From: Oscillospiraceae bacterium
Lineage (GTDB): Bacteria > Bacillota > Clostridia > Oscillospirales > Ruminococcaceae
Direction of reading: 5' to 3'
DNA: 64,000 bases
Assembly: GCA_016281125.1 (NCBI GenBank)
Contig: JAEEIA010000001.1
Coordinates: forward strand, 1-64,000
A program made the translations under genes and the position numbers. Positions 39,374 through 45,326 of the stretch are shown piece by piece (position 1 is the stretch's first letter; each line of letters begins with the position of its first letter). The notes below the pieces were generated by a model that saw only the letters and a list, made by a program, of their open reading frames with translations, was not told where the DNA came from and made no database searches.

Positions 39374-41449
39374 TCAGTCTTTTGTAACGGTGATCAGCTG
39401 TCCTGCAAGCTGCATGAATGCATCTTCGTCTGTCGTTGCACTCAGCTGCATGTTGCATCCGGTGATATCCGGCAGTATGCCGGACGGGACTACCAGCTCC
39501 CACTGGATCCAGGCCGTCTCTGTCAGATCAGCTTCGCTTTGGCAAAGCTCGTGTACTGTCAGAGAGAGAACGCCGTCTGCGGAAACATGCAGATTGGAGA
39601 TTGCGGTGGCTTTCGCAGCTTCATCCACGAGCATCGTCAGAACGATTTTGCTCGTTCCGTCGTCATATGTGCGGTAAGTGACACGTTCAGGTGCCTGACC
39701 CGGAAGTGCAAACTCCGGCTTTTCGCTTACCCTTGCATAGATCGTTGTGACGGAACCGGTCTGCTCCGGAATCCGGTGAATATCCTTGTTTCCGAAAATG
39801 GATGCTATAAAGCCCTGTCCTGCTCTGTTTTTCCAGTACCAGTTCTCTGCGGCTGTCGGATCCGTGACATCCTCCGGCGGCAGTTCATCCGTGTGATATT
39901 CGGTCATACCGATGACCGGCTTGACGGCATCCGGAATCTCGTTCGCCGGCACGGAGATGAAGAAATAGCGGTTTTTGCTCTCATCATACTGTCTGTCAGC
40001 CGGCATCATCGGCTGCGCTGCATCCGATACGGTCAGAACGCTGAGGTCGATATGCAGTTCGCCGGACGGTGTCAGTGTTCCGTCGTGATAATTGACGATG
40101 GCGGTATTGCGCGGCAGCTCGCTGGCCGGAACGCCGATGAAGATGATGTCATGCGGCTGGCCGTCATGCGAAATGTGCGTGCCGGAAACAGGATCCACGA
40201 TGGCTTCTCCGTCGGGCAGTGCTTTTTCAAGCCAGTCCGCAGAAAGGAAGGTCGTCAGCGCGGTATCATTCTGCTGGCCGCTGCCGGTCAGATAGCGCTT
40301 TCCGTCCGCTGCGGTGCGGATGACGTCAACGGTGATGCCGTCCAGCGGAATGTCATCGCCGCTGTAACCGTCCCAGAACCATGCGTAGAACGCATCTGAA
40401 TCCGGCTGTTCGGTGACATACGTCTGTTCTGCGTCCTCAGGCTGCGCGGGTTCTTTTTCGTTCCATGTGATAAAGAGATGCTCCGGCAGGGAATTGCGCC
40501 AGTCCTTGTATTCCTGCGTATTCTGCACATAGCTTGTCAGGCTCGATATATCGTCATAGCTTATCATTTCCGTGCTGTCTTTCAAGTCCGGAATCACGCG
40601 GTCAGGCAGTTTTTCGTCGTAATACGTTTCCGTATATTCCACAGATACCTTTCCGCCGCTGATGTCCTGCAATTCATTCTTCGGTACCGTGTATAAGCAA
40701 TGGTAGTTTTCATATAAACCGGTTTTGTGGAGAAAATCCGTCTGCGGATCGGTCAGCAGAAATGCTGAATACCGGACGGTGAGCGTGCCGTCCGCGGAGA
40801 GGGAAGCGCCGGTGAATTCTTCGTCAAAATATCTGAGGTAATTGGCCGGCAGCTGCTGCCCTTTATATGCAAAATACAGGACGTCGTATTCCGTGAATGT
40901 GTCCTCGCTGAGAATGAACATTCTATTCGGACTATCTGATGATAGGTTAGTATCTGCGGCCAGCTGCTGCCAATCGTTCATGCTGCGCAGAACACGAACC
41001 ACGCCGTTTTCAGACACTGCAGGGCTGTTCTCATCGTTTCCGCCGAAGTCAAATATATGTTGGATCAGCGGAACCTGTTTCTGCTGTGCAGCGTTCTCGC
41101 TGACGCCCGCGGCGGGCTGCGCTTCGCTTTCGGTGGTATATCCCGCATTCTTCTGCTCGGTGCGGCGGATCGCCTCTTTTCCGACCGGTACCGCAACGGC
41201 CGTACAGAGTACAACGGCTGCGGCGATGCCCGCCGTCCATGCCCACGGCCTTACCGTGCGCTTGTCTTTGCGCTGTTTCATTTCAATGTTCCTCCTTCGT
41301 GTGAGGACGGGTTTGTCTGTCCGCACAGGAGAATCGCCGTCGGCATCTTTGCCGGTCAGCGGGGCGCCGCTTTTCTGCCATTCATCCAGCTCATCGAGCA
41401 GATCCTGCGGCAGATTGCTGAGTGCATGGATCAGATCCTGCTCTTTCAT
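39374..41449 (-). CDS. Large single-TM protein, putative anti-sigma/sensor partner of the ECF sigma factor
   Basis: TM WAWTAGIAAAVVLCTAVAVPVG; 4-nt ATGA overlap with upstream ECF sigma gene. Confidence 0.7.
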   Translation of the reverse strand: MKEQDLIHALSNLPQDLLDELDEWQKSGAPLTGKDADGDSPVRTDKPVLTRRRNIEMKQRKDKRTVRPWAWTAGIAAAVVLCTAVAVPVGKEAIRRTEQKNAGYTTESEAQPAAGVSENAAQQKQVPLIQHIFDFGGNDENSPAVSENGVVRVLRSMNDWQQLAADTNLSSDSPNRMFILSEDTFTEYDVLYFAYKGQQLPANYLRYFDEEFTGASLSADGTLTVRYSAFLLTDPQTDFLHKTGLYENYHCLYTVPKNELQDISGGKVSVEYTETYYDEKLPDRVIPDLKDSTEMISYDDISSLTSYVQNTQEYKDWRNSLPEHLFITWNEKEPAQPEDAEQTYVTEQPDSDAFYAWFWDGYSGDDIPLDGITVDVIRTAADGKRYLTGSGQQNDTALTTFLSADWLEKALPDGEAIVDPVSGTHISHDGQPHDIIFIGVPASELPRNTAIVNYHDGTLTPSGELHIDLSVLTVSDAAQPMMPADRQYDESKNRYFFISVPANEIPDAVKPVIGMTEYHTDELPPEDVTDPTAAENWYWKNRAGQGFIASIFGNKDIHRIPEQTGSVTTIYARVSEKPEFALPGQAPERVTYRTYDDGTSKIVLTMLVDEAAKATAISNLHVSADGVLSLTVHELCQSEADLTETAWIQWELVVPSGILPDITGCNMQLSATTDEDAFMQLAGQLITVTKD

Positions 41450-42006
41450 AGGAAACCCTCCTCTTTCAGATACGTGCGCAGCTTTTCCTTTGTGCGCTTT
41501 AAGATCATTTTCACACGTCCGGCTGTGGAGCCGTGTGCTTCTGCGATTTCCGCAATCGGCTGCATCGAATAGTAGCGCGAGAGAAAAATCATGCGCTGCT
41601 CCTTCGGCAGAGAACGCAGAAAACGCGTCATAGCTTCCTGCAAAGCGATTGTATCCAGACGGGCTTCCAGATCCTCGTCCGATACGAGATAGGGTGCCAG
41701 CTCATCAAGCGCCGTTTCCATTTCTCCGCCGCCGCGTTTGGCGGTACGGCGTGCAGAGAGCCTGTCCAGTGCGAGATTCCGCGTGATGCCGGACACAAAC
41801 GCCGTCAGGGAGCGCGGCTCTGCGGGCGGAATGGCGTTCCAGAGCTTTAACAGCACATCGTTCGCGCATTCCTCTGCATCCTGTCGATCGCCCAGAATGC
41901 GGTATGCCATCGTGCGGCAGAGCTTGCCGTATTGCACGGACGCAGCCTGCAAGGCCTGCTCGTCGCGCGCCTGAAACATCCGCAGCAGCTTTTCGTCCTT
42001 GGTCAT
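41446..42006 (-). CDS. ECF RNA polymerase sigma factor
   Basis: RILGDRQDAEECANDVLLKLWNAIP; FLRSLPKEQRMIFLSRYYSMQPIAEIAEAHGSTAGRVKMILKRTKEKLRTYL. Confidence 0.9.
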   Translation of the reverse strand: MTKDEKLLRMFQARDEQALQAASVQYGKLCRTMAYRILGDRQDAEECANDVLLKLWNAIPPAEPRSLTAFVSGITRNLALDRLSARRTAKRGGGEMETALDELAPYLVSDEDLEARLDTIALQEAMTRFLRSLPKEQRMIFLSRYYSMQPIAEIAEAHGSTAGRVKMILKRTKEKLRTYLKEEGFL

Positions 42007-42123
42007 AGCGGGATCCCTCCTTTCTCCGGGGTGATGATGCTGTCCCCTTCACTTTATCTGACGGGAACGGGAGAAGCAAAGTAACAGAATCGGGTCACAA
42101 ATTTTTTTCGTATAGAGGAACAG

Positions 42124-42165
42124 TGAAAACCGCACCGGTTACAGAATGGGTTACCGGTGCGGCTA
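42124..42165 (-). terminator. Rho-independent terminator downstream of the serpin gene
   Basis: CCGCACCGGTAAC-N7-GTTACCGGTGCGGTTTTC on minus strand. Confidence 0.8.
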
Positions 42166-42175
42166 TGGTTTTCTG

Positions 42176-43420
42176 TCAGGACTCAGGCGTGTTCAGAATG
42201 CCCGTAAAGATCGGGAGCATGGTGTCCGTATCCACGATCATATAGAGGAACGGGCGGTCGAGAATGACCTCATGCTCCGTTTCGGGCGCCAGAGCGGAGT
42301 CAAGCACTTCGACGGTCGCAGCAGCGGCTTTGGTGCCCTCGGTGTTGACTTCGATCACGGCTTTCTGCATAATCGTTCCGATATTGAGCTGCGAATCCGC
42401 GATGCCGGAAAAATCTGCGTTTCCTCCGAAAGCGGAATTCATGTTCATTTCCTTCAGGATCGGAATCAGGTTGGTGGTGTATTCCAGCTTGAACTGCGGC
42501 AGTCCCGTGTTTGCATATTCCGGCTGCTCAATATCATGAAGCAGTGCGTTCAGGCTGTCGGGCGTCTGCTGAGCAAGGTACTCCTCCGGTGACAGGTCAT
42601 TCTTCGGCAGGATTGCCGCAAATGCATAGCCGTCTGCATACGGCTTCCAGAAGCCCTCAGCGGCTTCATCTTCCAGATAAAGCTCCTGGCTGTACATCAT
42701 GCTACATTCCTTTTCCTGCCCGGATGCAGTGCGGAACTGGTGCTTGCTCGGCTCGTTCTCATAGGGACTTTCCCATTTTGCGTCAAAAATGACCGCGTTA
42801 ATCAGCATCATGACAGATTCTTCGGAAAACGCATCAATCAGCTTGGGAATCATTCCGGCTGTGTTGTCGCTGCACCATTTGTTGACAATCTCCACAGCCT
42901 TGTTGTCAAACGGCGAGCTGTATATTTCAGCGCCGTAATAATCGGAGGCGGCGTGCAGGAAGGTTTCCTTTGCGGGGAATGTGCCCTTCTCTTCGCGCAG
43001 CCAGACGGAGTTTGCAGTGTGGAACCGTGCTTTTTCGGTGTCCGGCATGTTGGTGCGGTAGCTGTAAAGATATTTGTTCAGCGTATCCGCGGGAATGCCG
43101 CCGAGCATCTGCTCGATTTCCGCACGCGTTTCGCCGCCTGCGCCGTTTGCCGTCAGCGCGAGCACCTGCATCAGCGAAAACGGAGAAATCAGGATATTGC
43201 TGCCGGGGGCGTCCTTCGCAGCATTCTGCATCAGCGTGAATGCAAATGCATTCTGCCCGCTGAGAAATTGCGCGTCGGGATCCAGCCCCTGAACCTGCTC
43301 TGCCTTGAGATTCTGCGTGAGTGCAACGGTTTTTGCAGCGGCTGTCGGGCCGGTGCAGCCTGTCATGCTGACGAGCAGCGTCAGCGCTGCGGAGAATGCT
43401 GTCAATTTCTGGTGTTTCAT
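42176..43420 (-). CDS. Serpin, lipoprotein
   Basis: Lipobox VSMTGC; NILISPFSLMQVLALTANGAGGETRAEI; VIEVNTEGTKAAAATVEVLDSALAPETEHEVILDRPFLYMI. Confidence 0.95.
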   Translation of the reverse strand: MKHQKLTAFSAALTLLVSMTGCTGPTAAAKTVALTQNLKAEQVQGLDPDAQFLSGQNAFAFTLMQNAAKDAPGSNILISPFSLMQVLALTANGAGGETRAEIEQMLGGIPADTLNKYLYSYRTNMPDTEKARFHTANSVWLREEKGTFPAKETFLHAASDYYGAEIYSSPFDNKAVEIVNKWCSDNTAGMIPKLIDAFSEESVMMLINAVIFDAKWESPYENEPSKHQFRTASGQEKECSMMYSQELYLEDEAAEGFWKPYADGYAFAAILPKNDLSPEEYLAQQTPDSLNALLHDIEQPEYANTGLPQFKLEYTTNLIPILKEMNMNSAFGGNADFSGIADSQLNIGTIMQKAVIEVNTEGTKAAAATVEVLDSALAPETEHEVILDRPFLYMIVDTDTMLPIFTGILNTPES

Positions 43421-43593: not shown

Positions 43594-44412
43594 TCAGGAT
43601 TCTGCGCTGTCTGTTCTGTGCTCGTTCAGATAGTCCCGAACCTCCTGCTCGATTTTCTTGATCATCTTCTGATCTTCAAAATCTTCCGGTTTGAAAGAGG
43701 CATAGCTGATCTGAACACCAATGCCGTTTGCAGTGAACAGGGCATAATCTGTAATGCTTTCATATTCACTTTCCTTATCCTTATGATCGTACTGCGTTTC
43801 GCTGTCACCGTATTGCCATTTGAACAGCGTGAGATAAACAAAACGCATGTGCCCGATGTAGGCCCAGGTATTCCTGTCCTCTGTTACGGTATCGGGATCG
43901 TCTTCCGCAACGGTCAGGCCGTGCTGATACTGATCATAAATTGCCCAGAATTTTTCTTTTGACGCGAGCTCGATGTCTTCATCGAACGCAGCGGGGAGCG
44001 AATCCAGCCCGTAGTAATCGAGCAACTCCTCGTCCGTTTTCTCAACAAAAACAGTCGGCCCGTCGTATTCCGGGGCAGGCTCCGCAGTGTTGTCCTCTGC
44101 TTCGCTGTTTTCCGGCGTTTCTGCTATATCCGGGGCGGCGTCTGCCGGTTCATCGTTCAGGGTTTCCGGGGTATTTTCTTCAGCCTGCTCCTCTTCACCC
44201 TTATATTGGGACATATTGTCGGTGGTGGCGTTTTCAAAAGTTTTGGCAGCGTGGAGCTGCGGCAGGAAGATGCCGAGCGCTGCCGTCAGGCAAAGACAGC
44301 ATGCAAAGGCGCCTGCGCCGGTCAGGATCCGGATGCGGGAGCGCTGCTTCCGCTGATAGGCCGCGCTTCTGCGGAACACCTCAGCCTGAAAATCTTCATT
44401 CGACATTCTCAT
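43594..44412 (-). CDS. Single-TM protein, putative anti-sigma partner
   Basis: TM ILTGAGAFACCLCLTAALGIFL; 4-nt overlap with upstream ECF sigma gene. Confidence 0.7.
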   Translation of the reverse strand: MRMSNEDFQAEVFRRSAAYQRKQRSRIRILTGAGAFACCLCLTAALGIFLPQLHAAKTFENATTDNMSQYKGEEEQAEENTPETLNDEPADAAPDIAETPENSEAEDNTAEPAPEYDGPTVFVEKTDEELLDYYGLDSLPAAFDEDIELASKEKFWAIYDQYQHGLTVAEDDPDTVTEDRNTWAYIGHMRFVYLTLFKWQYGDSETQYDHKDKESEYESITDYALFTANGIGVQISYASFKPEDFEDQKMIKKIEQEVRDYLNEHRTDSAES

Positions 44413-44993
44413 TCTGCAAGCTCACCTTCCTCTCCGATCAGATCCCGCAGCGTCTTTTTCGCGCGGTAAAGCAGATTGTCCACCTGTTTGCGGTTTTTCT
44501 TCATAATCCGTGCCGTGTCCTCGTAGGAGTATTCCTCAAAGTACACCAGATGCACCGCCAGCTGCTGATCCTCCGGCAGCTGTTTGAGCGCCTCGTTGAC
44601 CCTGCGCTTGCGGTCGTCCCGGATGACATGCTCCTCCAGGTCTGTTTCGTCCGCCAGAAACGGCTCAGCCTCGTCCAGAGGAATCTGCGCCGCCCGTTTG
44701 CGCTTGCGCAGATAGTCCAGCGCGCGGCTGCGGGCGATGACATACAGGAATGTTTTGAACGGATCCCTGAAATTATACTTGCGCGGATGTACGACCAGAT
44801 ACATGAACACGTCCGCGGCGATATCCTCCGCGGCGCAGATGTCATGCACGTACCTCTGGATAAAAAAGGTGACCGGATCACGGTATTCCTCGATGATTCC
44901 TGCAAAAGCCGATTCATCGCCGTCCAGCCAGCGGCGGTAATAGGTCGCGCCGTTTTCCATAGTGTTCTCCATTCTGCTGAAAGCTGCTTTCAT
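44409..44993 (-). CDS. ECF RNA polymerase sigma factor
   Basis: YVHDICAAEDIAADVFMYLVVHPRKYNFRDPFKTFLYVIARSRALDYLRKRKR; LKQLPEDQQLAVHLVYFEEYSYEDTARIMKKNRKQVDNLLYRAKKTLRDLI. Confidence 0.9.
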   Translation of the reverse strand: MKAAFSRMENTMENGATYYRRWLDGDESAFAGIIEEYRDPVTFFIQRYVHDICAAEDIAADVFMYLVVHPRKYNFRDPFKTFLYVIARSRALDYLRKRKRAAQIPLDEAEPFLADETDLEEHVIRDDRKRRVNEALKQLPEDQQLAVHLVYFEEYSYEDTARIMKKNRKQVDNLLYRAKKTLRDLIGEEGELAE

Positions 44994-45105: not shown

Positions 45106-45134
45106 TTGCAATTTTTACGAAAGCGTGTTATAAT
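45106..45134 (+). promoter_or_regulatory. Sigma-A-type promoter driving the sRNA candidate
   Basis: TTGCAA-N17-TATAAT. Confidence 0.75.
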
Positions 45135-45140
45135 AAAGTT

Positions 45141-45229
45141 GACCTTCTGAAACGGGAGCATACCCTCTTACAGGCTCCCGAAACCCTCTCCAAAGAAAGC
45201 CGTCCGGTACCGGGCGGTTTTTCTTTTTT
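45141..45229 (+). ncRNA. Putative free-standing small RNA
   Basis: Own promoter, 7-bp hairpin CGGGAGC/GCTCCCG with CCCTCT loop, linker ACCCTCTCC, terminator hairpin plus TTTTTCTTTTTT; no ORF. Confidence 0.6.
45200..45229 (+). terminator. Rho-independent terminator of the sRNA candidate
   Basis: CCGTCCGGTACCGGGCGG then TTTTTCTTTTTT. Confidence 0.85.
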
Positions 45230-45297: not shown

Positions 45298-45326
45298 TTG
45301 ACAGGAGGGGGAAAATGTGGTATGAT
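45298..45326 (+). promoter_or_regulatory. Promoter of uppP
   Basis: TTGACA-N17-TATGAT. Confidence 0.75.

Follow-up and report, generated by a model that had tools for sequence, protein, structure and literature searches.

A genus-specific small RNA gene with two C-rich seeds, divergent from an ECF-type sigma factor gene, as a candidate regulator of cellulosome genes

Blocking of ribosome-binding sites (RBSs) has been shown for the small RNAs (sRNAs) LhrC (PMC4132741), RoxS (PMC4409812) and NfeR1 (PMC10746234). The LhrC1-5 RNAs of Listeria monocytogenes are short and terminated and carry CU-rich seeds both within a stem-loop and on the single strand before the terminator, with which they cover a Shine-Dalgarno (SD) sequence (PMC4132741). 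RsaE/RoxS of Staphylococcus and Bacillus block RBSs through C-rich single-stranded regions (PMC4409812), and the alphaproteobacterial alpha-r14/NfeR1 ‘cuckoo’ RNAs repeat identical unpaired anti-SD seeds among variable stems (PMC10746234). The CiaR-dependent csRNAs of streptococci are short Gram-positive RNAs that target translation initiation regions (PMC3091779, PMC4507080). RNA A, the predicted sRNA described here, would resemble each of these groups in the respective feature. It differs from LhrC, whose terminator loop adds a third seed and which has a UCCC motif, five copies and LisRK control (PMC4132741), in having one copy, two CCCUCU(C) seeds, linkage to an ECF sigma factor gene and no match in Rfam. 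RsaE/RoxS have another structure, a CCCCUUUGUU motif in RoxS, ResDE control and targets in redox and central metabolism (PMC4409812); alpha-r14/NfeR1 carry the seed CCUCCUCCC in three hairpins and target ntrBC and transport genes (PMC10746234); and the csRNAs are CiaR-controlled, with several similar copies in each genome (PMC3091779, PMC4507080), whereas RNA A has a single copy and a sigma-A-type promoter.

The window analysed, the first 64,000 nucleotides of contig JAEEIA010000001.1 of an Oscillospiraceae bacterium, contains on its plus strand a sigma-A-type promoter (TTGCAA-N17-TATAAT, 45106–45134, with TG ahead of the -10 box), followed by the ~89-nt predicted RNA A (45141–45229), whose 5′ end we place from the -10 box. 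Hairpin P1 (45153–45180) pairs CGGGAGC with GCTCCCG (45153–45159/45174–45180) around a 14-nt loop, ATACCCTCTTACAG (45160–45173), and this apical loop holds seed 1, CCCTCT (45163–45168). Seed 2, CCCTCTCC (45184–45191), lies in the linker AAACCCTCTCC between P1 and an intrinsic terminator (45195–45229) with a helix of 12 pairs (45195–45222), a GGTACC loop and a T tract after it. The gene uppP has its own promoter outside the sRNA gene (TTGACA-N17-TATGAT, 45298–45326, plus strand, 11/12 matches). The first-pass annotation had named the same promoter, stem, loop, linker, terminator and uppP promoter, and all are present where it placed them; its linker needs one amendment, since the end, AAAGAAAG, can pair with the T tract and extend the terminator, so that the free linker is approximately AAACCCTCTCC.

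A 91-nt RNA A fold has a predicted energy of -31.3 kcal/mol (z = -3.4), equalled in stability by 1 of 200 shuffles, and in the ensemble fold of the window’s RNA A both CCCUCU motifs are unpaired with a probability of ~0.97–0.99. RNA A in the window contains no ATG when read from the sequence, and coding potential was rejected for it.

A covariance model built from three same-genus homologs, found by DNA search of relatives, located one copy in 19 of 30 genomes of the window’s genus (match L084 excluded); a further homolog in G003 (L006) and another, reduced one in G009 (L215) bring RNA A to 21 of the 30 genomes, in single copy each. The homologs have in common a -10 box of the TATAAT type, a hairpin whose loop contains (A)CCCUCU(C), a AACCCUCUC-type linker and a GC-rich terminator. 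Their stem sequences diverge strongly (CGGGAGC, CGGAUUCU, UGAAUUCAA, CUUGUACCG), and the fold of P1 is backed by compensatory changes in relatives. Across the modelled helices both sides are altered in 15 of 18 pairs and 91.8% of cells are paired, a level matched by 0 of 500 shuffles and falling to 37–48% when the partner strand is slid, although these figures lean towards the model structure because the alignment was fitted to it; in the same fitted alignment the terminator helix is paired in all homologs.

Seed 1 is kept and unpaired across the 21 species, G003, G020 and G024 having slightly altered forms, and the loop motif has an unpaired probability of 0.85–1.0 in every species with RNA A. 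Seed 2 is kept in 19 of 21, being degenerate in G042 and absent from G009, and the linker motif is unpaired with a probability above 0.7 in most species (0.45 in G003, 0.57 in G043). Evolution therefore retains the structure and the two seeds while the rest drifts, the same pattern as reported for the alpha-r14 RNAs, where seeds stay constant and the remainder changes (PMC10746234). The first-pass annotation had proposed a covariance-model search and had made its case depend on conservation of the C-rich motifs and hairpins in relatives; the search recovered the family as described, and across 21 species the motifs are kept and the stems covary.

Shuffled sequence also yields consensus promoter and terminator matches, which speaks for a chance assembly of a hairpin with stretches that resemble a promoter and a terminator. 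Because RNA A is conserved in 20 other species it is more than chance, and this conservation, together with the covariation and the fixed motifs, refutes that explanation, which we regard as almost certainly wrong. We are highly confident that RNA A is a real sRNA gene. Its conserved unpaired C-rich motifs are what an RNA pairing in trans should have.

Several further candidates were rejected. Weak family-wide matches to the model are attributed to chance, being without the CCCUCU motifs and, in those checked (L085–L091), without the sigma gene; the second match in G044 (L084) likewise has neither. A long-range stem closing around P1, hinted at by G021 and G004, fails in register across species.

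Comparison with the described families places RNA A closest in layout to LhrC, as the conserved seeds lie in a loop and in a single-stranded linker; the terminator loop, in the window and in the homologs, has no CCCUC and hence no counterpart of the third LhrC seed. The likeness to RsaE/RoxS that had been drawn at first does not extend to membership, as neither the window nor the homologs gave a covariance-model match. The cuckoo-RNA arrangement of CCUCCUCCC in three hairpins is also absent, RNA A having one CCCUCU(C) hairpin and a linker seed. Against Rfam, the window gave no family at gathering score, and its top loose matches were unrelated and far below threshold; nothing credible was found for the RNA A homologs or for RNA B, the second RNA described below. 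By the tests made, RNA A is not a member of LhrC, RsaE/RoxS or alpha-r14. It has the conserved unpaired C-rich motifs and the short, independent, terminated form of the C-rich, SD-pairing RNAs of Firmicutes, and to judge from sequence it is a genuine new sRNA family of that known kind, restricted to the genus by these searches.

Divergent to RNA A lies an ECF-type sigma factor gene (Sigma70_r2/r4; 44409–44993, minus strand), which is linked to it in all 21 species at a distance of ~180–220 nt. Six of the nine species without RNA A have no ortholog of this sigma factor at E <= 1e-20, and the other three have only relatives of 30–41% identity, none with such an RNA adjoining; several of these nine genomes are incomplete, although G014 reaches 99% and G015 96% completeness. 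RNA A and the divergent sigma factor may be linked in action as well as in position.

A leader or attenuator would have the position of RNA A, 5′ of uppP or a PLP-enzyme gene and on the same strand. The gene 3′ of RNA A depends on the species, however: 12 of 20 loci have a decarboxylase-type PLP-enzyme gene there and only the window has uppP, and in the two nearest relatives uppP lies tens of kb away with its own promoter retained and RNA A not there. Because the downstream gene varies and relocated uppP keeps its promoter without the RNA, RNA A is not the uppP leader, a role ruled out by synteny. Every RNA A homolog inspected has its own promoter and terminator, and a leader of whatever gene follows is accordingly very improbable, as is an RNA arising as a side product of the promoter region of the divergent sigma gene. 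The earlier proposal of a discrete terminated sRNA gene, not simply a leader, stands on this synteny and on the promoters and terminators of the homologs.

The surroundings of the sigma gene offered some separate observations. An inverted repeat, TGAAAGCTGCTTTCA, at 44978–44992 coincides with the start of the annotated sigma open reading frame and is conserved in relatives; the true start of the gene may be further in, which would make TGAAAGCTGCTTTCA a leader hairpin or an operator. A gene at 43594–44412 overlaps the end of the sigma gene and encodes 272 amino acids, with a single membrane stretch predicted close to the N-terminus; this product matched nothing in Pfam or NCBIfam and is, by position only, likely an anti-sigma factor. 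Downstream of the sigma gene and in the same direction lie a gene for a serpin and one for a second sigma factor of the ECF type (41446–43420). Elsewhere on the window’s contig, a serpin-dockerin gene (L115) has the RBS GAGAGGGU.

CCCUCUC complements GAGAGGG and not the usual AGGAGG. In a census of RBSs over 864 kb of the window’s own genome (766 predicted genes), GAGAGGG occurred at 8 genes (~1%) and AGGAGG at 113. The anti-SD character first ascribed to the motifs thus survives as complementarity to an RBS class, though the class is the rare GAGAGGG and the motif is no generic complement of GGAGG.

A genome-wide pattern search for GAGAGGG near ATG, with sites read by translation and then by Pfam, gave ~20 plausible genes in the own genome, the seed motif having been fixed beforehand by the sRNA and plausible starts picked by inspection. 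Seven of the 20 are cellulosome genes, namely GH48, two GH9, a GH5-CBM6-dockerin, a serpin-dockerin, an LRR-dockerin (a BspA-type LRR protein with a dockerin near threshold) and a cohesin protein, corresponding to a binomial P of ~1e-6 to 3e-5 at 3–5% background. There was no general excess of GAGAGGG-N-ATG in the own genome (41 against 36 for a reversed-pattern control), and no significant enrichment among signal-peptide genes in the 864-kb sample (P = 0.15). In that sample dockerin genes were weakly enriched for GAGAGGG (2/23 vs 6/743, P = 0.02), and they paired better than other genes with RNA A segments (P = 0.004; 1 of 60 shuffled sets was as low). In G044, which has RNA A, genes assigned by N-terminal sequence as GH48, GH9-like and GH5-like are again prominent among those with GAGAGGG.

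The GH48 RBS is GAGAGGGG in 25 of 25 species, including those without RNA A; independently of the motif search, the gene carries ACGAGAGGGG or a variant with one flanking base changed in all 25. One GH9 gene carries GAGAGGGGG in the majority of species with a readable start, and most GH9 genes are without GAGAGGG. In G014, which is without RNA A, GAGAGGG is retained at GH48 and at two GH9 genes, so the RBS is independent of RNA A. The 17–18 nt 5′ of the GH48 start (ACGAGAGGGGAAAAAAGA) are near-identical in 25 species (L154–L178), with divergence farther upstream; for comparison, the uppP RBSs of the genus vary outside GGAGG.

We propose that RNA A is an intrinsically terminated, trans-acting sRNA of ~90 nt, presumably transcribed from its sigma-A-type promoter, which would display CCCUCU(C) twice as a near-identical seed, in the loop of a hairpin and in the linker that follows. 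Either seed could pair with a GAGAGGG(U)-type RBS over 7–8 nt, and such pairing would block translation initiation, repression being the expected sign. RNA A would then act as a post-transcriptional regulator of cellulosome and fibre-degradation genes, with a seed in common with RNA B; it is a probable regulator of fibre degradation because the GAGAGGG class is rare and biased to such genes. From sequence complementarity, pairing of RNA A with RBSs as such is quite probable, even with a seed as short as 7 bp, while a cellulosome regulon might equally well be right or wrong. We lean slightly towards the reading as a whole, in which a trans-acting sRNA pairs with GAGAGGG RBSs and its control is biased towards the cellulosome.

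The same seed might instead have its main targets elsewhere, among metabolic, regulatory, envelope or sigma-regulon genes, with the bias of GAGAGGG towards the cellulosome a separate matter. Roughly half of the genes with GAGAGGG lie outside the cellulosome, RNA A forms good duplexes with other genes too, the GH48 RBS is unchanged where RNA A is missing, and linkage to a sigma gene points to a programme for stress or the envelope. GAGAGGG is also the RBS of related regulators of the sensor-AraC type in both the own genome (L150, G000:C91) and G044 (L280, G044:C9), a possible conserved non-cellulosomal target. The enrichment of GAGAGGG users for cellulosome genes speaks against this alternative, which we consider rather unlikely.

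A paired-motif search brought up another predicted RNA that carries the same paired seeds as RNA A. This RNA B came to light in G005 and G012 and then in G010 and G013, divergent from AraC-type genes; where inspected, its neighbours are regulator genes of the periplasmic-binding-sensor or AraC type. The RNA B model has a best match in 28 of the 30 genus genomes, including eight of the nine species without RNA A, and the idea that RNA B is a stand-in only where RNA A is absent is wrong, RNA B being found in nearly all genomes. The ~165 nt of RNA B comprise a 5′ hairpin, an outer stem, an inner hairpin whose loop is of the CCCCUCU type, a linker carrying CCCUCUC, and a terminator whose loop (AUGCCGGUACACAU) hardly varies; its modelled helices are supported by pair counts. 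The own-genome copy (C80:110828-110912; locus L391, G000:C80:109300-112400, at ~1440–1620 on the plus strand, with homologs L364–L390) is the weakest of the 28 matches and has the same anatomy.

In several species the RNA B loop complements the GH48 RBS over 9 nt (CCCCUCUCG:CGAGAGGGG), which counts against main targets elsewhere, and the duplex between the G044 loop and the own-genome GH48 RBS has an energy of -19.6 kcal/mol. In the own genome the RNA B loop has diverged, and duplex energies do not separate dockerin genes. The presence of RNA B would explain why GH48 keeps GAGAGGG in species without RNA A. Tentatively, and with somewhat less confidence than for RNA A by itself, we suggest that this cellulosome-producing genus of gut and rumen controls translation of core cellulases through a GAGAGGG RBS code read by both RNAs.

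Identical single-stranded motifs repeated on two RNA scaffolds in one genus would also suit an RNA that titrates a protein, by a Csr/Rsm-like logic, and does not bind mRNA. The motif, however, exactly complements a specific conserved RBS class, and we know of no CCCUCU-binding protein in this group, which also counts against titration. Although protein binding was raised by the LhrC authors as well (PMC4132741), we find this explanation improbable for RNA A.

For cellulosome control, our literature search turned up sigma-I factors (PMC6056542) and, in Clostridium, mRNA processing (PMC4423207, PMC10311766), and no paper describing sRNA control of the Ruminococcus-type cellulosome. Should the target set be right, the way in which rumen and gut bacteria regulate fibre breakdown after transcription becomes open to direct tests, because each seed/RBS pair is short and precisely defined, and two RNAs of different scaffold have these pairs in common. 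The sigma-gene linkage, RNA B with the same motifs and the cellulosome-biased set of GAGAGGG RBSs go beyond what the first-pass annotation contained.

In many species (L364–L391), conserved DNA (GACAGT..., then a ACAATCCTGCATTG-like stretch) precedes the RNA B -10 box, ~60–130 nt upstream of the hairpin, and resembles either a site for a regulator or a -35 region of unusual type.
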